This document shows positions 15,002 through 64,000 of a stretch of 64,000 nt of DNA, piece by piece. Source of the DNA: Rosa chinensis. Lineage: Eukaryota > Streptophyta > Magnoliopsida > Rosales > Rosaceae. The notes under the pieces are model-generated. The model was not told where the DNA came from. It made no database searches and worked only from the letters and a program-made list of their open reading frames with translations. The first letter of the stretch is position 1. Each line of letters opens with the position of its first letter. The stretch is from contig NC_037090.1 of assembly GCF_002994745.2 (NCBI RefSeq), positions 37,133,001 to 37,197,000 of the forward strand, written 5' to 3'. The translations under genes were made by a program, and so were the position numbers.

Positions 15002-15422
15002 GGAATGGTGAAATTGTGTATTGAGATGTGACTATAAAATTTCATTTGTTGAGATACCGTGAGTCTAGTATGACCATTTTAATTTGTGGTTTAAGATATG
15101 ATAGTTTGTGTATGGATATCTATGTAATGACCGGTGAAATCAGTGTGATGATCTTTGTAAAAAGGATGCGGGAACATCTGTGTGATGACCAGTGAAATCT
15201 TGTGATAATCAGTGTGTTGAGGAAAAATTTGCACACAGTGAGCGTAAATGTCATCCAACAAATTTCACTCATATTCATTTAGTGAATAGAGTTTTAATTA
15301 TTTCGAGTTCGACCCATTCAGGACAGAATGTGTCTCTTAATTATCCCTTCTTACGGGAAAACACCCTTTGATTCTATTTATGGAGAAACCAATTGATGAG
15401 ATGTGTGTTTGTTTGTTTTTGC

Positions 15423-15946
15423 GGCTGCACCTGGATATTTGAATGGGTTGCCTACGTACCCTTGGAGAGAGATCAAGCCACTCGTAGTTCAAGAATTCCA
15501 ATGGGTGAATGACCCATTGGAGGGTATTGCTTTTTGGAATGTGAATAGTGTTTGGACGAATTTGGTGTAAGTGAACCAGGGATTCGATTTATGTCTGAGG
15601 ACATTTTGGGAATGATTTGACTTTTCTAGTGTTTGGATGAATTTGACTGATGAGGTTAGGGATTTAGATCGGATGAACCAGGGAGCCAGGGATTCTGTTT
15701 GGATTTGCGGTTGCATCTAGTGGGTTGCTAGATTGCCTACATACCCTCGAGGAGGGATCAAACCGTTGTAGTTCTTGAGAATTTGTATTTCTAGTGTTGG
15801 GAGATTTTGACTAGAGTCAGTGATTCAATTTAGGACTAGCTGAATTTGACTGGTGGAGTCAGGGATTCTATTTGAAATTGTGGTTGCATCTAGTGGGCCG
15901 CTAGATTGCCTACGTACCCATTGTGGGATCAAACCGACCGTAGTTC
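15423..15946 (-). other. Three copies of the F-family pseudoknot module
   Basis: Copies lie at 15423-15490, 15709-15774 and 15882-15946. In plus-strand notation each has GGYT, a hairpin, CTACR, a CCC/GGG hairpin, ARCC and YGTAG. Pairs are GGCT/AGCC with CTACG/CGTAG; GGTT/AACC with CTACA/TGTAG; and GGTT/AACC with CTACG/CGTAG. Confidence 0.7.
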
Positions 15947-52359: not shown

Positions 52360-53665
52360 TGCATTAATCAAGGGAGTTTGGAAAGACTTCGCATTCCTAT
52401 GTTTTTCACATGTTTCTCAAATGTGGCCTTGGGCAATGATTTGGTGAACAAATCTGCCACATTCTCCTTAGATCTTACTTGATTCACTTGAATCTTGAGG
52501 AGAGCCTGTTGTTGCTGATTGTAGAACAACTTTGGCTATATGTGTTTTGTGTTATCACCCTTAATATAACCTAGCTTCATCTGTTCGATGCAAGCTGCAT
52601 TGTCTTCACAAATGCAAGTAGGCTCTTCAGTGGTATAACTCAAACCACTAGTCCCTCGAATACGTGTAATGATAGTTCTTAACCATAAACACCCACGAAC
52701 CGCCTCATATAGAGCAATGATCTCTGAGTGGTTCGAGGAGGTAGCCACAAGGGTTTTCTTGGTTGATCTCCAAGATATCGCCGTGTTCCCATTGGTAAAT
52801 ACATAACCAGTTTGGGAGCAATCTTTATGTGGGTCAGAGACGTATCCAGCATCAGCAAAACCGACCAAAACGTCACTTGGCGTTTTAGTGTAGTGAGTGG
52901 CGTTTTCGCCATCAACATTTCCGTTAGGGATTGCAGTTCCATCTGCGGTCCCTCTTGTCTCTCTGTACGGAAAGAATAGTCTCAAGTCAATGGTTCCTTT
53001 TAGGTATCGGAAATTGTTCTTGATACCATTCCAGTGACGCTGCGTTGGCGCTGAGCTAAATCTAGCTAACAAGTTCACTGAGAATGCAATGTCTGGTCGA
53101 GCACATTGGGCTAAGTACAATAATGCGCCTATTGTACTTAGATAGGGAATTTCAGCTCCCAACACCTCTTCTTCATCTTCCTTTGGACGAAATTGATCTT
53201 TCTTTACATCCAAGCTTCGACTGATCATGGGAGTGCTAGCAGGATGCGCTTTGTCCATGTTAAATTGCCTGACTTTTGGACATATGCAGACTGGTGGAAT
53301 AGTATTCCACAAACTTGGTTTTCTAGTTCAAGGCCTAGACAGAATCGAGTTTTCCCAAGATCCTTCATCTCAAATTCGAATTTCAAATAGCTCACGGTTT
53401 CTCTTATTTCATCAAGAGTACCTATTATGTTCATATCATCGACATATACTGCTACATTTGCAAATCCGGAACTTGTTTTCTTTACGAATACGCAGGGGCA
53501 TAATTCATCGTTCTTATATCCCTTCCCAATCAAGTAGTCACTTAGACGGGTATACCACGTCCGCCTAGATTGTTTCAATCCATAAAGTGAGCGTTTCAAC
53601 CTAATTGCAAACGCACTCCGTGGTTTAGAGTCACTTGACTTAGGTAATGTAAGGTCATCAGGCAC

Positions 53666-53712
<47 letters not shown>

Positions 53713-53878
53713 AATCTAGATCCCCATAGAGATATGCAGTTACCACATCCATGAGCTGCATTTCCAGTCCTTCAGAAACTACTAAGCTAACTAAGTAGCG
53801 GAACGTTATAACGTCCATTACAGGAGAGTATGTCTCCTCGTAGTCAATTCCAGGGCGTTGTGAGAAACCTTGCGCCAC
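52360..53878 (-). pseudogene. copia C reverse transcriptase and RNase H
   Basis: The RT frame from 53878 has QRPGIDYEETYSPVMDVI, DVVTAYLYGDLDSEI, SLYGLKQSRRTWYTRLSDYL and the catalytic YVDD (VAVYVDDMNIIGT). A (TA)n run at 53671-53707 adds about twelve in-frame Tyr-Ile codons just after DLDSEI. A frame change near 53225-53312 leads to RNase H (DVLVGFADAGYVSDPHKDCS; STKKTLVATSSNHSEIIALY; EDNAACIEQMKLGYIKGDN). A TAG after TKHI (52536) ends the frame early; the remainder to about 52360 (ADLFTKSL-like) is in phase. RT is nearly intact but the protein cannot be made whole. Confidence 0.88.
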
Positions 53879-53935
53879 AAGGCAAGCCTTGTACCTCAGG
53901 ACTTCATTCTTCTCATTACGCTTTTTGACAAAGAC

Positions 53936-55923
53936 TCATTTATGTCCTACATGCTTTACACTTGGTGGGGTTAGCACTACCTGACCAAATACTTGTCTCT
54001 TTGTCAGAGAATCTAATTCTGCCTGGATTGCTTCTTTCCATTTAGGTCGATCTGCTCTTTGTTGACATTTTGCAAAAGAGCATGGTTCGATATCATCGTG
54101 CTCTATGATTTCTTGAGCAACAGTGTATGCAAATTCATCATCAATGTGTATGGAAGATCTTTCTATCAACTCATACGCACTCTCATAATCCATTGAGATT
54201 TCTTTGTTCTTTAGAATCATTTCAAACATCAGAGCGTCCTCCAGTATTGATTCATGGACATAACTGTAATCAGAGACAACCTCATGAGAGGGATTCTCTA
54301 CATTGATGATTAATGGATCGATTTGTGCCTTACTCACCCTCTTCTTCCTTGGGTGAGTGTCAATCGAACCAAGTGGCCTCCCCCTCTTCCTTTGGGTAAC
54401 CACGGCCTCAACCATACCTCCACTAAGTGTAGTTGCAGTGCCTCTATCTGCGGCACCGTGCCCCTTGTTGGGGACTTCTAACCTTGCAGGCACATTTGCA
54501 GCTGGTATATGTGATCTCGTCACTTTTGCGATATCAGTAAACGCATCAGGCATCGAATCTGCTACGTTCTGAAGATCGATTATTCTTTTCACTTCACTTT
54601 CACATTGTGAAGTGTGGGGATCAAAATGAGACAGAGTGGGGACAAACCATGACAATTCCTGTCGTTCCCTTGGAAAATCATTTTTCCTATCTCCCCCCAA
54701 CTACGGGAAGACTATCTCATCAAAGTGACAATCCGCAAATCTAGCGGTAAAGAGATCGCCTGTCAAGGGTTCCAAATAGCGGAGTTGGGGATTCGTATCC
54801 AATATAAATATTTAATCGTCTCTGATGACCCATTTTGGTGCGCTGTGGGGGCGCAATAGGCACATATACTGCGCAACCAAATATGCGTAAGTGTGAAATG
54901 TCAGGCTCATATCCAGTTACCAACTGGTACGCAGAAAATGGTTGGCTAGCAGTGGGTCTAAAATGAATAAGTAAAGCTGCGTGCAATATTGCATAACCCC
55001 AGGCAGATATAGGCAGGTTGATGCGCATAACCAATGCCCTAACCACCATCTGTAGCCTTTTGATGGTGGCTTGGGTACATGATGCTCTACATCGATCCCG
55101 ATAGACATGCAATAATCATCAAATGTTTTTGATGTAAACTCTCCAGCGTTATCAAGCCTTATAGACTTGATAGGGTGATCAGGGTGGTGAGCCCTTAAAC
55201 GTATAATCTGTGCTAGGAGTTTTGCAAATGCAGCATTTCTTGTGGACAATAAAGCGACATGTGACCAGATTGTCAAAGCATCCACCAGAACCATAAAGTA
55301 CTTAAATGGTCCGCATTCTGGATGGATAGGTCCACATATATCTCTTTGTATCCTTTGTAAGAATGGAATGTTTTGTTTTGTATCTTTAGCATAGGAAGAT
55401 CTCGATCCTGTTTTTGCTAAAGAGCAGGCTTTGCAAAACGAGTGATGTGCCTTTGAAATAGTCAATGAGGCATAATGGGAGGGAGGTAGTGCTTCTGGTA
55501 CTTCAGAAGGCAATGGCTGCATTTGAGCAGTACTAGGACCGACACCTTGCAGTGTGGCGAATTTTTGTTCCATTTTATTTTTCACTGGAAAGAAGAGATG
55601 TCCGTGTGAGTTCTTTTAAATACGGATTATCATGTCATGACCGGGGTGCCCTAGGAGGTCATGCCAAAGCCTGTATGAGTCAGTGTTCCACATTTCATTG
55701 TTGGTGATAGCATAGGATTCAATGATTCGAATCGTAGTGAGGTACAGTCCACTAGATTGACTCATAAGTTTCTCTAAAATGTGTTTCCTTCCACATTCAT
55801 TAGAGTTAATATCAAGGTATTCAGTTCCATTCTCACAATGTATTTCTACTGGATAACCATTGGCACAAATAGCTTTGAAACTTAACAAGGTTCGGTTAGC
55901 TCTTGGTGCATATAGAGCGTCTA
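53936..55923 (-). pseudogene. copia C GAG-pre-integrase, integrase and linker
   Basis: From the element F junction: LYAPRANRTLLSFKAICANG, SYRLWHDLLGHPGHDMIIRI (pre-integrase), then after a break near 55600 the integrase with HHSFCKACSLAKTGSRSSYA, DICGPI (first Asp) and IRLDNAGEFTSKTFDDYC (second Asp). A frameshift after HHVPKPPSK (about 55075) breaks it before the Glu. The linker frame 53936-54700 has KAQIDPLIINVENPSHEVVS and DRPKWKEAIQAELDSL, which leads into RT. Confidence 0.85.
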
Positions 55924-58900
55924 TGTTGAGAGAAAATCTGCACACAGTAAGCGTAAATGTCACCCAACATAATTTCACTCGTATTCATTTAGTGAATAGA
56001 GTTTTTATTATTTTGGGTTCGACCCATTCAAGACAGAATGTGTCTCTTAATTACAATCCCTTGTTACAGGGAAACACCCTTTGATTCCATTTATGAAGAA
56101 ACCAATTGATGGGATGTGTGTTTGTTTGTTTTTGCGGCTGCACCCGGATATTTGAATGGGTTGCCTACGTACCCTTGGAGAGGGATCAAGCCACTCGTAG
56201 TTCAAGAGTTCCAATGAGTGGATGACTCATTGGAGGCTTTTGATTTTGGAATTAGAGTAGTGTTTGGGACGAATTTGGTTTAAGTGGACCAGGGATTCGA
56301 TTTTGTGTTTAGGACGCGGTTGCATCTAGATAGATTTGGTTCTAGATTGCCTACATACCCTTTGCGGGATCAAACCACATGTAGTTCCGGCTTTTGAGAT
56401 TTAAATGAGTAGATGACCCATTTATTTTGGATTTGTGTTTGAGAGATTTGAAAGGTTTAGAGCCTTTGAATGATTTGATTTTCTGGTGCTGGGAGAATTT
56501 GACTAGAGTCAGTGATTCATTTGGGACTGGCTGAATTTGACTGGTGGAGTCAGGGATTCTGCTTGGAGTTGCGGTTGCATCTAGTGGGTCGCTAGACTGC
56601 CTACATACCCTGTGAAGGGATCAAACCACTGTAGTTCATCAGAATTGGTATTTCGGTTTTGTACCGATTTTTATTCAACGAGTGTGAATTTTGAACTCAT
56701 CGAGAACATATTTTGGTGGACACCCGATTTTAGTAGAGCGTCCACTGATTTGATTTGGGAGCTTTTAACAGGCCTTGAGACTTGAAACGGGATTTGGGCT
56801 GCTTTGAAGTTTATTGAGCGTGATAATGGTTTGAAGTAGGCTCTGTAGTGCACCGAAAAGATTGCAAGGCATAGAGTGATATGGACACCCATTAATTTTA
56901 CATATGCACCCAACTTGAGCCCAATTTTCGTCTTCGACAAATAGAAACTCAAAGACCCGCAGTAGACTTCCATTGGAATTGCACGAGTACGGCACCGCTT
57001 CAATTAGCCCTTTTATTTTTATTTTTTATTCATGCCACCGATTCAATTGCATAATTTATCTCTTTTTCAAAGACCTGGACAGTAGCTTTCTGTCATCTTG
57101 CCATTTGATCCCCATTTCAGAATAAAGCTACAACAGCACCATGGTTTGATAATTATGCATTTTGTCTTCAAGTGTAATGGAAGACGTGATCATCACTTTG
57201 GCATGGTCTTTCTTTACTCTTCTTGTATTACTAAACCATTATCCCACCGCTTTATGGTCACAAAGCTTAATTAAACAATTAAACTTTTGACCTTTCAAAG
57301 CCTCTCTTATTTTCAAAGCAGTTTTGCAACAACTTTAGACAAGGCCATGAAACTTTTGACTAGGCGTGCTGATCAATTTCCCACTGCCAAGCTTTTCTTC
57401 TTTTTCTATGTCGGCACCTCATCAAGCTTTTTTTCTTTCTTGTCGGCTACCGTGAATGTTTAGATATTAGCACATGTAATTGGAACTCCTCTTCAATATG
57501 CAGTGTCACCACCGGTTCATTCTTTCTTTATTTTGCAGTTACCAGTGAGTGAACTGGTGCTTTGGGAAGGGAACAAGAATCCAGGAAAAGCTGTTTGGTT
57601 GCAGTGGCGTGGTGCAGGTACGTCAAGGGCCTTGGCAAAGCTCCAGTAGTGGCACATCCGAAAGGAGAGGTGCGGGCTTCGTCAGCAGCAATAGTAATTT
57701 GCACCAGAAACAATTATGTTTGTAATCAAGTGTGTCTTCTTTTCCCCGTCATCAGCTTGTGTTCATTTGACAGAGCCTCTGTATGTGGTGTAGGTGCGAG
57801 TGCAGAAGAGGTTTGATGGAGCTTGTCTTCGTTAAAGCTCCGTTGACACTCTGTTTGCTGCTGCAAAGCCCTTGTTGGTACTCAACAAGGCTTAGAAAAT
57901 TCCACCGGATTGGTCATACACCCGTTGATACACATGTATCGTAAACGAGATTGCGACCGCTCCGGGGACCTCCATAGCTCCATGGTGACACAGGTATAAG
58001 AGACGTTGCATTTATTTGCTAGGAGAGCACCATCATTTGCTGAAGCAGCAACCCTTCACTAGGAGAGCACCATCATTTGTTGACATAGTGGTCCTTCACC
58101 AGGAGAGCACCTCATGGGGATGGTGTTGTGGTTCTGATGCGTGCCAGAGAGACTATTGTGGGCAGCAGCTTGACTTCTCCGTGATTGCCGATGTGGTAAT
58201 CGCCTTGGTCACCGGCAGGAGATTATGAGGACGGAAGCAACATAAATACTCCAGAGAGATTTTTGGCCTTGCTTCATGGATCTTAGCACTTGACAATGTC
58301 TGCACCATGAAAGGAAAAGTTCAGTAATTTCAGGTGATAATCATTATATACCTGTGACTTGTGGAGCTTCTTCTACTGAAATGTGGTCTTCCGTCCGTGG
58401 CTTCTCTTGGAAAGTTTTAAGGATGGAATGCTGTAGGACTCCGGTCTCGTGTGAACTCTTTGATTTGTTCTCCTCTTTCTTGTGTGCTTCCGTGCTGCTG
58501 GCTTTTGCTTTTTAATGTTGCAGAGCTTTCACTTCTTTTTTTTTTGTTCTGCTCTCTAGCCTCCTTCTCCTTTGATGTAGAGAATGTGCCTCTTTATAGG
58601 CAACACCGGATCAGCTGAGATTAGAATTGTTATCAATTCAAATTCAAATTTCGGTTATAATCGCATCCGTGAATTTGAATTGAAATGATATTTGCAGCAA
58701 CCAACTTCCACGTTTGAAGCCTCTGGTGGGTTTTGTTAATTCAAACCTCATTTTCCTTGACCAGATCTTTCGTCTGTAGGAGGTGAAGAGTATCTAAAAC
58801 TCTTGTTTTGAAATTTGAATTCCACGTGAAGCATGAGAAATCTGATTGCCTGAAGTAACTAGGGAACTAATATCACTATTTTGCATGTATTTGAAACTGC

Positions 58901-59157: not shown

Positions 59158-59349
59158 GTTGCCCCCTCAAGCGTCGTGCGTGGAATAGCTTTGCGCGTAC
59201 GGGGCTTGACAACTTTTCAAATGGAATCATTATTTTCACCATTTGTAGTTTACATTCGTTCAATGAGTTATTCAGAGGTGCAAGGCTTTGTGCCATTTGA
59301 TCGTACCTCGTCTGTGAATTGGAAGATCTTGTGATCTTGAGGATTTTGT

Positions 59350-59921
59350 GGCTGGATCTAGAATTTGAGACTAGAGCCTACGTCCCCATTTAAGGCATCA
59401 AGCCTTACGTAGTTCCCACGGATTGCACCTCACCAGGATTTTTCTCGAGGAGGTTTCCTCTCACTCGAATCTTTCTTGAAGAGCTTTCTCCTTACTTACA
59501 TCAAACTCGAGGAGATTTCTACTCACTCGGATCTTTATCGAGGATATTCCTTCTCATTTAAATTGACTTCGAGAAGATTTCCCCTCACTCAGATTTGTTT
59601 CGAGGAGATTTCTCCTCACTTGAATCGTCTTGGAGAAGATTTCTCCTCACTTGGATTTCCCTCGAGAAGATTTCTCCTCAAAGAGTTTCTTTGACTTGTA
59701 ATCCTTCCAGGAGCTTTATTGACAATCTACATCCTTTCGTCCTATGCACATGTTAATTAGGCTTTCATGCTTGGTCAGCAAAAACCCACTGCTTATCAGA
59801 TTTTCTCTTTCTTCCTGATTGATTCAAGAATGGAGATATATTTTTGATTGAGTGGCTGCATCTAGTTTTTGAAGCTAGACTGCCTACGTACCCCTTTTGA
59901 GGGATCAAGCCGTCGTAGTTC
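59350..59921 (-). other. Two pseudoknot modules in the element F interior
   Basis: Copies at 59350-59415 (GGCT/AGCC; CTACGT/ACGTAG) and 59854-59921 (GGCT/AGCC; CTACG/CGTAG), both with a CTAG/CTAG side hairpin of different loop. They lie between the gag stop and the polypurine tract, that is in the 3' untranslated part of the genomic RNA. Confidence 0.7.
59440..59700 (-). repeat. Imperfect minisatellite in the element F interior
   Basis: About eight units of roughly 33 bases, each like CGAGGAGATTTCTCCTCACT followed by an ATC/TTT spacer. Each unit contains GAGGAGA/TCTCCTC and so can fold on itself. It separates the two internal pseudoknot modules. Confidence 0.8.
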
Positions 59922-60047: not shown

Positions 60048-61883
60048 TTACTCTGCTGACGATGTCTCCACCTCAATTTCCTTGTTGTTGACCATTTCTT
60101 GGATTATGTTCTTCAGAACGAAACAGTCCTTTGTTGGATGACTTACAATTCGATGGTACTGGCAATATCTGGGGTCATCGGTCTTGTTGACTTCACTCTG
60201 TCGTTTTGGTTTAGGGAGCTTGATAGATTGTGCTTCGTTGAGCTCACTGAAAATCAGTTCGACGTCGTCATCATTGAAAGAGTATTTGACTTCTTTTCTT
60301 TCTTTGAGAGTGAGCTTTCTAGACCCTTCTTTTCCTTTGCATTTGTTCGACTTGGTGTCAGTTTCGACAAAGGTTGCCAGTGACTCATCTGTATTGTCAA
60401 CTCTATGGTCTTTAAAGGATGCCCTCTGTGTCATAATCTTCTTACGGGCGACTTGTCTTTCGACATTGCTAGCTTTTGAGACTAGTGCTTCGAATGTTTG
60501 AGGTTCTGCGGTGCTGACAAAAGTTGCTATCTGTGGTAAGAGATTGTTTGAGCACATTTGTACTGCTGATAGCTCTGTTAATTTTTCCGAGCATTGGAGG
60601 TTTAAGCTCCTCCATCTGGAAATGAATTCATTGGTGCTTTCATCAGACTCTTGTTTAGTGTCAGCCAAGTTGATAATTGAGACTTTCTTTTTGGAGCTGA
60701 CAAATTGTGCCAGAAATGCTCTTTGCATATCGTCCCATGTGAGGATAGAACCTGGTTGTAGTTGACTGTACCAAGTAAAAGCTGCTCCTTTGAGGGACTG
60801 AACAAACTGCCTTACTAGCAATGCATCTGATTGTGATGTTTCCCCGCAGGCTGAGAAGAAATGAGCCAAATGTTCATGTGGAGAGCCATCTACTCCATCG
60901 AACTTGTCAAAAGTTGGCCTCTGATAGCCCTTAGGGAATGGTAATGCATCATAATGAGCAGGGTAGGGTTTCAAGTACCCAGAGAACTGTGGGTTTGAGG
61001 ACTTGTATACTTCTCGGATTCCTTCTGCAATTAGTGTCTTTATGTCTTCAAGACTTGTGATTGCGGATCCATGTCCTCCTATTTTCTTTTCACAATCACT
61101 TTTTTCATGATTTTTGTGATTGCCAATGTTAGCCATAGCGGTTAATTGAGAAGTCAATGCTGCTATTTGAGCATCTTTTTTAGCTAGCATCGTCTTCATT
61201 TCTTCTAGCTGCTCTTCTATTGTTGATGCATTCGTGACCATAACTGACATGGTCTCAGGCTTTGTGTCGTTATGTGTCTCCAATATTGCTCGAGTATTTT
61301 GACTAACAACAGGGACCATATATGGTCTTGATTCTACTAGAAAGTTCGGGAATGCCCCCTGCGGTACATTAGCTCGAAGTGCCCCCACTGGTACATGAGA
61401 TGGGAGTCTCATTGCTCGTTGCTTGGACTTGCCAATTGTAAAAGTTGTTTTATTGACCACTGATTGACGTTGACGATGGTGTACATTAACAACTTTATCC
61501 TCTTGATCAGATGACTTGTCAGAGGTTGAAGTGAACTTGACTATCTGAAGTTCGGAAGCTGTATTAGCTATCAGTGATTGCAGATGTACTTGTTGTAGGG
61601 ACTTGAGGGACCGGGCTTCGGGCCTTGTTGGAACCTCATGTGGTGTGACGACCAACCTGATTGGAATAGAACCAATCATTATCTGAGTACTGACGGGGGC
61701 ATGGTTAGCATTGAACGTAGTGGTCTTGATGACTCTGACATCATGGATGAGCTTCTGAACATTGCTTGTCAGTGGAGCTTGATCAACGGAGAATGAAACA
61801 TGATGTTCAGGTCGTGTTGCTTGTCCAGTCTTCGACTCAATAGCTTTGAGCTCCTGGAAGTAAATAGTCACTTGTGGTGCCAT
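60048..61883 (-). CDS. Gag polyprotein of element F
   Basis: I choose Met at 61883 (MAPQVTIYFQELKAIE); an in-frame Met at 61913 exists upstream. About 611 codons, no stop. Residues 1-215 are basic and Ser/Thr-rich. Residues about 220-255 look like a coiled coil (IEEQLEEMKTMLAKKDAQIA). The gypsy retrotransposon gag domain follows at about 320-430: LVRQFVQSLKGAAFTWYSQL, WDDMQRAFLAQFVSSKKKVS, ESTNEFISRWRSLNLQC. Near the C-terminus CQYHRIVSHPTKDC is a CxxH-x5-H-x4-C variant of the zinc knuckle. It should form particles and bind RNA. Open frame plus identical LTRs suggest it is expressible now; an autonomous gypsy relative must supply pol. Confidence 0.9.
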   Translation of the reverse strand: MAPQVTIYFQELKAIESKTGQATRPEHHVSFSVDQAPLTSNVQKLIHDVRVIKTTTFNANHAPVSTQIMIGSIPIRLVVTPHEVPTRPEARSLKSLQQVHLQSLIANTASELQIVKFTSTSDKSSDQEDKVVNVHHRQRQSVVNKTTFTIGKSKQRAMRLPSHVPVGALRANVPQGAFPNFLVESRPYMVPVVSQNTRAILETHNDTKPETMSVMVTNASTIEEQLEEMKTMLAKKDAQIAALTSQLTAMANIGNHKNHEKSDCEKKIGGHGSAITSLEDIKTLIAEGIREVYKSSNPQFSGYLKPYPAHYDALPFPKGYQRPTFDKFDGVDGSPHEHLAHFFSACGETSQSDALLVRQFVQSLKGAAFTWYSQLQPGSILTWDDMQRAFLAQFVSSKKKVSIINLADTKQESDESTNEFISRWRSLNLQCSEKLTELSAVQMCSNNLLPQIATFVSTAEPQTFEALVSKASNVERQVARKKIMTQRASFKDHRVDNTDESLATFVETDTKSNKCKGKEGSRKLTLKERKEVKYSFNDDDVELIFSELNEAQSIKLPKPKRQSEVNKTDDPRYCQYHRIVSHPTKDCFVLKNIIQEMVNNKEIEVETSSAE

Positions 61884-61956
61884 CTTGTATCCCCTGAGGC
61901 AAACAAGTAACAAATATGATTAGTTATATCATAAATGGAGATGAAAAGGAGAATGG

Positions 61957-61976
61957 GTCCCACCGGGCGTGCCAAA
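61957..61976 (-). other. Primer binding site of element F
   Basis: On minus, TTTGGCACGCCCGGTGGGAC starts five bases after the 5' LTR end. It differs by one base from the site of element D (6241-6260), so both elements are primed by the same or a closely similar tRNA. Confidence 0.78.
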
Positions 61977-61981
61977 AATTA

Positions 61982-64000
61982 TGTTGAGAGAAAATCTGCA
62001 CACAGTAAGCGTAAATGTCACCCAACATAATTTCACTCGTATTCATTTAGTGAATAGAGTTTTTATTATTTTGGGTTCGACCCATTCAAGACAGAATGTG
62101 TCTCTTAATTACAATCCCTTGTTACAGGGAAACACCCTTTGATTCCATTTATGAAGAAACCAATTGATGGGATGTGTGTTTGTTTGTTTTTGCGGCTGCA
62201 CCCGGATATTTGAATGGGTTGCCTACGTACCCTTGGAGAGGGATCAAGCCACTCGTAGTTCAAGAGTTCCAATGAGTGGATGACTCATTGGAGGCTTTTG
62301 ATTTTGGAATTAGAGTAGTGTTTGGGACGAATTTGGTTTAAGTGGACCAGGGATTCGATTTTGTGTTTAGGACGCGGTTGCATCTAGATAGATTTGGTTC
62401 TAGATTGCCTACATACCCTTTGCGGGATCAAACCACATGTAGTTCCGGCTTTTGAGATTTAAATGAGTAGATGACCCATTTATTTTGGATTTGTGTTTGA
62501 GAGATTTGAAAGGTTTAGAGCCTTTGAATGATTTGATTTTCTGGTGCTGGGAGAATTTGACTAGAGTCAGTGATTCATTTGGGACTGGCTGAATTTGACT
62601 GGTGGAGTCAGGGATTCTGCTTGGAGTTGCGGTTGCATCTAGTGGGTCGCTAGACTGCCTACATACCCTGTGAAGGGATCAAACCACTGTAGTTCATCAG
62701 AATTGGTATTTCGGTTTTGTACCGATTTTTATTCAACGAGTGTGAATTTTGAACTCATCGAGAACATATTTTGGTGGACACCCGATTTTAGTAGAGCGTC
62801 CACTGATTTGATTTGGGAGCTTTTAACAGGCCTTGAGACTTGAAACGGGATTTGGGCTGCTTTGAAGTTTATTGAGCGTGATAATGGTTTGAAGTAGGCT
62901 CTGTAGTGCACCGAAAAGATTGCAAGGCATAGAGTGATATGGACACCCATTAATTTTACATATGCACCCAACTTGAGCCCAATTTTCGTCTTCGACAAAT
63001 AGAAACTCAAAGACCCGCAGTAGACTTCCATTGGAATTGCACGAGTACGGCACCGCTTCAATTAGCCCTTTTATTTTTATTTTTTATTCATGCCACCGAT
63101 TCAATTGCATAATTTATCTCTTTTTCAAAGACCTGGACAGTAGCTTTCTGTCATCTTGCCATTTGATCCCCATTTCAGAATAAAGCTACAACAGCACCAT
63201 GGTTTGATAATTATGCATTTTGTCTTCAAGTGTAATGGAAGACGTGATCATCACTTTGGCATGGTCTTTCTTTACTCTTCTTGTATTACTAAACCATTAT
63301 CCCACCGCTTTATGGTCACAAAGCTTAATTAAACAATTAAACTTTTGACCTTTCAAAGCCTCTCTTATTTTCAAAGCAGTTTTGCAACAACTTTAGACAA
63401 GGCCATGAAACTTTTGACTAGGCGTGCTGATCAATTTCCCACTGCCAAGCTTTTCTTCTTTTTCTATGTCGGCACCTCATCAAGCTTTTTTTCTTTCTTG
63501 TCGGCTACCGTGAATGTTTAGATATTAGCACATGTAATTGGAACTCCTCTTCAATATGCAGTGTCACCACCGGTTCATTCTTTCTTTATTTTGCAGTTAC
63601 CAGTGAGTGAACTGGTGCTTTGGGAAGGGAACAAGAATCCAGGAAAAGCTGTTTGGTTGCAGTGGCGTGGTGCAGGTACGTCAAGGGCCTTGGCAAAGCT
63701 CCAGTAGTGGCACATCCGAAAGGAGAGGTGCGGGCTTCGTCAGCAGCAATAGTAATTTGCACCAGAAACAATTATGTTTGTAATCAAGTGTGTCTTCTTT
63801 TCCCCGTCATCAGCTTGTGTTCATTTGACAGAGCCTCTGTATGTGGTGTAGGTGCGAGTGCAGAAGAGGTTTGATGGAGCTTGTCTTCGTTAAAGCTCCG
63901 TTGACACTCTGTTTGCTGCTGCAAAGCCCTTGTTGGTACTCAACAAGGCTTAGAAAATTCCACCGGATTGGTCATACACCCGTTGATACACATGTATCGT
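61982..64000 (-). repeat. 5' LTR of element F (right copy, cut by window end)
   Basis: Matches 55924-57942 base for base in all lines compared, including identical short open frames. The remaining 1.2 kb would lie beyond 64000. Confidence 0.93.

Follow-up and report, generated by a model that had tools for sequence, protein, structure and literature searches.

A predicted multicopy pseudoknot module in probable Tat/Ogre-type Ty3 retrotransposons of Rosa chinensis, a candidate cis element of the element RNA

The window, by which we mean the whole 64,000-nt stretch of Rosa chinensis DNA analyzed here, carries near its right end an LTR retrotransposon, element F (Table 1). The LTRs of F are identical over at least 2.2 kb, and the identity still runs 195 nt past the end of the window. 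The product of its gag ORF matched the domains Retrotrans_gag (1.8e-12, above the cut-off) and Ty3_capsid (7.2e-06, below the cut-off). Its named matches of highest identity were from Rosa (86% identity over 65% of the query and 88% over 58%), and a Rubus match with 61% identity had a slightly higher score and covered more of the length. No other sense ORF of at least 90 aa was found between the LTRs, and F is without a pol ORF. No TATA box was seen in the scanned part of the F LTR. Beside the 5′ LTR, window positions 61955-61974 resemble a primer-binding site and read as a tRNA 3′ end with CCA on the plus strand. Judged by eye from ORF translations, Copia-like pol ORF pieces (window 55616-55978 and 52536-55585, minus strand) adjoin the left end of F and one ORF crosses the F LTR boundary; F appears to have been inserted in an older Ty1/copia element. 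A tandem repeat of ~31 nt (window 59444-59680) lies between the two interior modules of F and resembles tandem arrays reported in the POL-3′LTR regions of related elements.

Table 1. Element F and the modules in the window (positions are those of the window).
Feature	Position	Strand	Remarks
gag ORF of element F	60048..61913	-	621 aa, Retrotrans_gag; sets the sense strand
Left (3′) LTR of F	55924..58137	-	at least this long; from identity with right LTR
Right (5′) LTR of F	61982..64000	-	cut by window end; from identity with left LTR
Module c1, left LTR of F	56134..56203	-	P1 CTACG/CGTAG, P2 GGCT/AGCC in sense
Module c2, left LTR of F	56316..56387	-	P1 CTACA/TGTAG, P2 GGTT/AACC
Module c3, left LTR of F	56571..56637	-	P1 CTACA/TGTAG, P2 GGTT/AACC
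Module c4, interior of F	59348..59415	-	P1 G/C, P2 C/G; P3 and P4 imperfect
Module c5, interior of F	59852..59921	-	127 nt downstream of gag stop in sense
Module c1, right LTR of F	62192..62261	-	identical to left-LTR c1
Module c2, right LTR of F	62374..62445	-	identical to left-LTR c2
Module c3, right LTR of F	62629..62695	-	identical to left-LTR c3
Module c6, related LTR piece	15421..15490	-	c1 type
Module c7, related LTR piece	15707..15774	-	P1 A/U, P2 U/A
Module c8, related LTR piece	15880..15946	-	mixed: P1 G/C with P2 U/A

A module of ~70 nt occurs at 11 places in the window, in eight distinct sequences. The first-pass annotation of this DNA had placed three copies in each F LTR, two in the F interior and three in a solo LTR; all were present, together with those of the identical right LTR. 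An Infernal model made from the eight distinct copies, with which the window was searched up to E 10, matched the 11 places only, all on the minus strand. That annotation had described the module in plus-strand notation, and this orientation did not stand: because the gag ORF and the element are on the minus strand, the element RNA carries the reverse complement. It had also assigned the outlying copies to a solo LTR of the same family, and a related LTR does lie at 15.2-16.0 kb, but its alignment with the F LTR is confined to the final ~760 nt of the latter. The LTR modules of F sit 210-713 nt from the LTR 3′ end.

In the sense orientation, the module comprises GAA, the 5′ strand of helix P1 (CTACR), 2-3 nt, the 5′ strand of P2 (GGYT), TGAT, the P3 hairpin, TA (replaced by GA in one window copy), P1′ (YGTAG), the P4 hairpin and P2′ (ARCC), giving the strand order P1, P2, P3, P1′, P4, P2′. 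P1 (5 bp) and P2 (4 bp) cross, P3 is placed between P2 and P1′, P4 sits flush between P1′ and P2′, and all four helices lie within ~70 nt. Both crossing helices are fully paired in all eight distinct copies, and each has one varying pair: P1 columns 25/52 hold G-C in five copies and A-U in three, and P2 columns 31/87 hold C-G and U-A in four copies each. The pair-keeping switches claimed for both helices were complete (8/8), and the helices vary independently, as had been proposed, with copy c8 joining the G/C state of P1 to the U/A state of P2. Two CpG sites contain the varying P1 pair, so that both P1 changes could also be explained as products of CpG decay. The two sequence forms reported for the side hairpin were found, but its pairing is imperfect in some copies: c4 has a C.C in P4 and a G.G in P3, P4 of c6 contains a C.A, and both c1-type copies are without the two top pairs of P4. 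Unguided, RNAalifold recovered P1, P3 and P4, P2 being beyond what that program can draw. The sense-strand minimum of single sequences was without P1 in three of the eight copies. Single-copy folding energies were ordinary on both strands (z +1.21 to -1.83), and the case for structure therefore rests on comparison.

For this comparison, copies were drawn from the window's own genome (515 Mb, with the window on contig C3), the one plant genome searched. A pattern in which the switching bases were left free gave 1,162 matches, and its backwards control gave none. Modules were taken from the first pattern matches listed, with their surroundings, and from F-like LTRs found by DNA similarity. A sequence-only search gave 282 matches (184 distinct), among which 176 had all P1 and P2 columns and yielded 150 distinct modules. 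Most genome modules were obtained with a pattern that fixes TTGATCC, GGTA and GTAGGCA, and conservation at those letters is therefore inflated in the alignments so gathered. Across 1,245 pattern matches in the whole genome, the P1 switching pair was G-C in 549, A-U in 648, G.U in 32 and A.C in 16 (backwards controls 0), and hence Watson-Crick in 1197/1245; because the copies are related, the counts do not represent independent events, and among the A-U matches listed at least one has the look of a chance hit.

An explanation without RNA structure would see in the pairing states the founder haplotypes of a few module lineages, with gene conversion as the means of their spread, and in the P1 switch the CpG decay of methylated LTRs (CTACG/CGTAG to CTACA/TGTAG), with the core kept for another reason, e.g., protein binding to DNA. 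The location of P1.5/P1′.1 in CpGs agrees with such an origin, as does the free breaking of pairs in fossil copies, CATAG occurring with CTACG (a broken P1) in 3 of 44 c1-type modules. Against it, in neither F state do the switching pairs of P2 fall in CpG sites.

Covariation was judged against shared ancestry, with a null that keeps the tree and, for every branch, how many substitutions it carries and of what kind. Among the 150 F-type modules, the P1 and P2 pairs ranked 2 and 5 of 2,485, with E-values over all pairs of 1.2 and 7, which are not significant. In a set of 136 modules that included the second family described below, the top four of 1,176 column pairs were all proposed pairs, and 1,000 simulations never exceeded two. 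This was again the case in 149 modules, after the modules of a second prediction round had been included along with its misses (16 strings, of which 13 were new): the four highest of 1,176 column pairs were all proposed pairs, an outcome that 0 of 1,000 simulations reached. Eight of these modules had themselves served to derive the structure. Within the 20 proposed pairs, the E-values for the 149 modules were 0.010 (P4), 0.039 (P2), 0.061 (P4) and 0.065 (P1). The summed score of a helix was reached in 33 of 1,000 simulations for P1, 3 for P2, 26 for P3 and 0 for P4, the P1 value coming from a null that ignores CpG decay. Branches on which both sides changed numbered 0-2 per pair (four for one P3 pair), i.e., independent double changes are few. 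The first-pass annotation had looked to a larger alignment for covariation, and there the four strongest column pairs are structural, but no single pair is significant over all column pairs (149 modules, best E 0.58). Founder haplotypes would account for the one-set E-values and for the scarcity of double events, whereas the structural nature of all four strongest pairs, unmatched by the tree-null simulations, argues against them.

Variation in P2 provided expectations about the far end of the module. A search with the 5′ strand of P2 fixed as GAYY and P2′ left free gave 94 genome matches vs 36 in the control, so that a good part of these matches are chance or decayed F modules, and it revealed a second family of modules with GACT (family 2). 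For the 20 family-2-like matches chosen from the 94, the P2′ expected from GACT was AGTC, an expectation formed before the 3′ half was read and recorded only afterwards; AGTC was present in 18, TGTC in one, and one piece was cut off by other sequence. As the 20 pieces are close relatives, this amounts to one compensated change rather than 18. A second round of predictions was recorded before the sequences were fetched, AGCT/AGCT having already been met once earlier, and 6 of 10 firm P2′ predictions were met exactly. Modules with AGCT had P2′ AGCT in three of six cases (the other three had AACT, AGTC and ATCC), plain GGCT modules had AGCC in 3/3, and one family-2-like GGCT module had AGTC, whose pairing needs a G.U. 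Compensation was absent from all of the odd single copies, which had been marked in advance as probable fossils (0/5). The first-pass annotation had named freely breaking pairs as evidence against its proposal; the fossil copies do break them, and the firm predictions were borne out in part, the four failures being in line with founder haplotypes.

The P2 states found are GGCT/AGCC, GGTT/AACC, GACT/AGTC and AGCT/AGCT, which cover three of the four P2 pairs. That each of these lineages carries the complement at the module end speaks against founder haplotypes, as does P4, which also occurs as several quite different yet complementary stems; a DNA-binding site needs no distant complementarity. 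A search for GGYC in P2 gave 23 matches (control 2), one of which is an F-like module with GGTC and most of the others an unrelated repeat. This repeat, to which ~19 of the 23 belong, is a ~50-nt near-palindrome (CTACCTCC ... GGAGGTAG) that contains CTGATGA and is spread across chromosomes (e.g., C5:78580139-78580188). A small natural series is present at C2:10437796-10438104, where three modules ~105 nt apart lie within about 310 nt, with GGCT, AGCT and GGCT in P2, each complementary to its own P2′. LTR-type modules flank this piece at distances of ~8 kb and ~6 kb, and it is taken as an element interior for that reason.

Constraint was measured on LTR pieces found by DNA similarity. The 27 distinct rows comprised 26 genome LTR pieces and the window's own, and one of the 28 similarity-found pieces extended too far (1,686 nt). 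The mean minor-allele fraction was 0.0098 in the core (GAA, P1, P2, TGAT, TA, P1′ and P2′; 81 columns) and 0.0544 in the LTR spacer between modules (401 columns; p = 2.5e-5), so that the core is about 5.5 times less variable. The P3 region (0.049) was near the spacer value and the P4 region (0.031) intermediate. A conserved core with free loops is the pattern that a folded core would be expected to show. Selection on the crossing-helix structure, as originally proposed, is supported by the whole-genome tree-aware null, the complementary new P2 states and the core constraint, and we consider it quite unlikely that founder haplotypes without RNA structure account for the module.

The nature of the host elements was examined in a 9-kb piece around one family-2 module. 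In this single case, the ORFs upstream in sense include a reverse transcriptase that is divided between two of them, followed by RNase H, a further RNase H domain and integrase; in the ORF beside the module, RVT_3 at 341-460 lies between RT_RNaseH and rve. The module follows the pol ORF by ~330 nt, again a single case, in pol sense. Downstream of it (locus L310, 1555-3812) are three plant mobile domain pieces antisense to pol, of which one passes the Pfam cut-off. Tat/Ogre elements are marked by a plant mobile domain and by an additional RNase H (aRH) that separates RNase H from integrase, and a plant mobile domain ORF is reported in 57% of Ogre elements (PMC6317226). The Tat/Ogre features found here are a Ty3-type gag in element F, and aRH and a plant mobile domain ORF at the family-2 locus. 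A long stretch between pol and the 3′ LTR, with tandem repeats and antisense ORFs, is described for Tat/Retand elements, and the examined family-2 module sits in such a stretch; the words "secondary structure" and "hairpin" are absent from the main text of this 2025 survey of POL-3′LTR regions, the available part of which describes no conserved pseudoknot (PMC11963269). Modules are placed outside the coding parts seen, in several copies per element: in F there are three per LTR near the 3′ end and two after gag, and other copies occur as one to three after pol or between LTRs.

As pairing is possible on either strand, antisense transcripts, or single-stranded DNA in reverse transcription, might act instead of the sense RNA, and antisense ORFs do occur in Tat/Ogre-type elements. 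Changes to wobble pairs in sense numbered 64.5 for G.U vs 51.4 for A.C, values so close that the wobble counts leave the acting strand unsettled, with G.U slightly ahead. Against action of the other strand, all F copies are in element sense and the examined family-2 module is in pol sense, and in sense the short loop would cross P2 as in common H-type knots. We hold the sense strand to be the more probable acting one and a role for the other strand to be quite unlikely. A translation element, whether IRES-like or one that permits reinitiation or readthrough, might be located between cistrons or within a long leader, which would agree with the position of c5 shortly after the gag stop (127 nt) and with the LTR copies, which may sit in a leader. 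The family-2 module (one case), however, follows pol, with the ORFs seen downstream being antisense, and multiple copies in a position after the ORF are unsuited to frameshifting; this function is very unlikely.

The first-pass annotation knew of no named RNA class with this layout, and at the gathering threshold Rfam gave no match in the whole window, including the hammerhead and HDV-like models; at E 10, window 56080-56700 matched only Ocean-VII (E 3.7). HDV-like ribozymes share the strand order P1, P2, P3, P1′, P4, P2′, and the conserved unpaired TGAT, TA and GAA might likewise suit a self-cleaving ribozyme. HDV-like ribozymes have a catalytic strand, J4/2, with a catalytic C. In the module, P4 runs directly into P2′, its basal G-C pair is contiguous with both P1′ and P2′, and J4/2 has a length of zero in 8/8 copies; because this strand is absent, the module is not filed as HDV-like despite the common strand order. 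Several cleaving copies per genomic RNA would, moreover, destroy the template of a highly copied element. HDV-type cleavage thus appears unlikely from the sequence, and, with no ribozyme match in Rfam either, we give a self-cleaving ribozyme hardly any weight. A block to exonucleases similar to xrRNAs, which would leave stable 3′ fragments or protected element RNA, is suggested by compact tandem pseudoknots in LTRs and after gag or pol. Rfam contains xrRNA families, none of which matched, and the flavivirus and plant-virus xrRNA layouts differ from the module in strand order; such a block is unlikely.

A tRNA or protein-coding origin had been named as an explanation that would remove the case for structure, and both were rejected. 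ARAGORN found 0 tRNA genes in the window; the differences in length between modules are not multiples of 3 and a TAG is introduced into one frame by P1′, and the module is therefore not protein coding. Translations of the module-spanning ORFs, used as protein queries, returned one candidate and no scored match. Bacterial genomes and viral contigs, when scanned with patterns, yielded chance matches, with the mismatch-free core in the window alone among the matches listed; in the viral contigs, two tighter scans gave 0 matches and a looser one 11. There was no blastn match to plasmids and phages. A topic search of the open-access literature, which largely leaves aside subscription papers, gave no description of such a module among the matches listed, judged by title and the start of the abstract. 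A search of the same literature by sequence string gave no plant retrotransposon paper by title among the matches listed (including PMC10085705). The string TACGTAGGCA occurs in a maize gene paper (PMC6232826).

Structured RNAs with pseudoknots are known from other LTR elements. In Ty1, the 5′-terminal RNA pseudoknot contains a site bound by Gag in vitro and its disruption by mutation impairs retrotransposition, though a packaging role could not be shown (PMC4974528). Ty1 thus resembles the elements studied here in having a pseudoknot in the genomic RNA of an LTR retrotransposon, and differs in that its pseudoknot is a single long-range fold from the 5′ R to a site after the PBS, whereas the module is local, multicopy and also found after gag or pol. 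The mouse MusD transport element (MTE) is described as an export element with a pseudoknot and a kissing loop (PMC12786077). Its resemblance to the module lies in its being an RNA structure in cis, with a pseudoknot, in an LTR retroelement and in a presumed role in the handling of full-length RNA; the module differs in being from a plant, ~70 nt long and present three times per LTR with interior copies. With transport elements of the CTE/RTE/MTE type, the module has in common a predicted RNA structure that lies outside the coding sequence of its element.

We hypothesize that the module is a structured cis element of the sense RNA of Tat/Ogre-type Ty3 elements, most likely a repeated docking site that marks full-length RNA for handling, a reading to which we assign a probability of roughly 0.45. 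The sense RNA would fold as an H-type pseudoknot with the hairpins P3 and P4 in two of its loops. Several modules per element would dock Gag or a host export or stability factor, and docking would mark the full-length element RNA for nuclear export or for uptake into particles by Gag. We infer RNA as the acting form, sense as the acting strand and protein docking as the mode of action, and the docking of such a protein at several module copies would be the simplest reading. Although pol is missing from element F, its gag, LTRs and modules have been retained, in accordance with a cis signal carried by the RNA.

Very similar strings presumably occur in other flowering plants, and the module may be old and widespread. 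Such LTRs and their remnants could be annotated with the module as a structural mark, and because it is a defined structured signal of ~70 nt for which compensatory variants exist in nature, it makes direct testing possible. It is possible, if still short of probable, that this compact pseudoknot with two inserted hairpins is a new RNA class with >1,000 genomic copies and a multicopy cis element of Tat/Ogre elements, and that it would be the first candidate for a genomic-RNA export or packaging signal in a plant LTR retrotransposon lineage.
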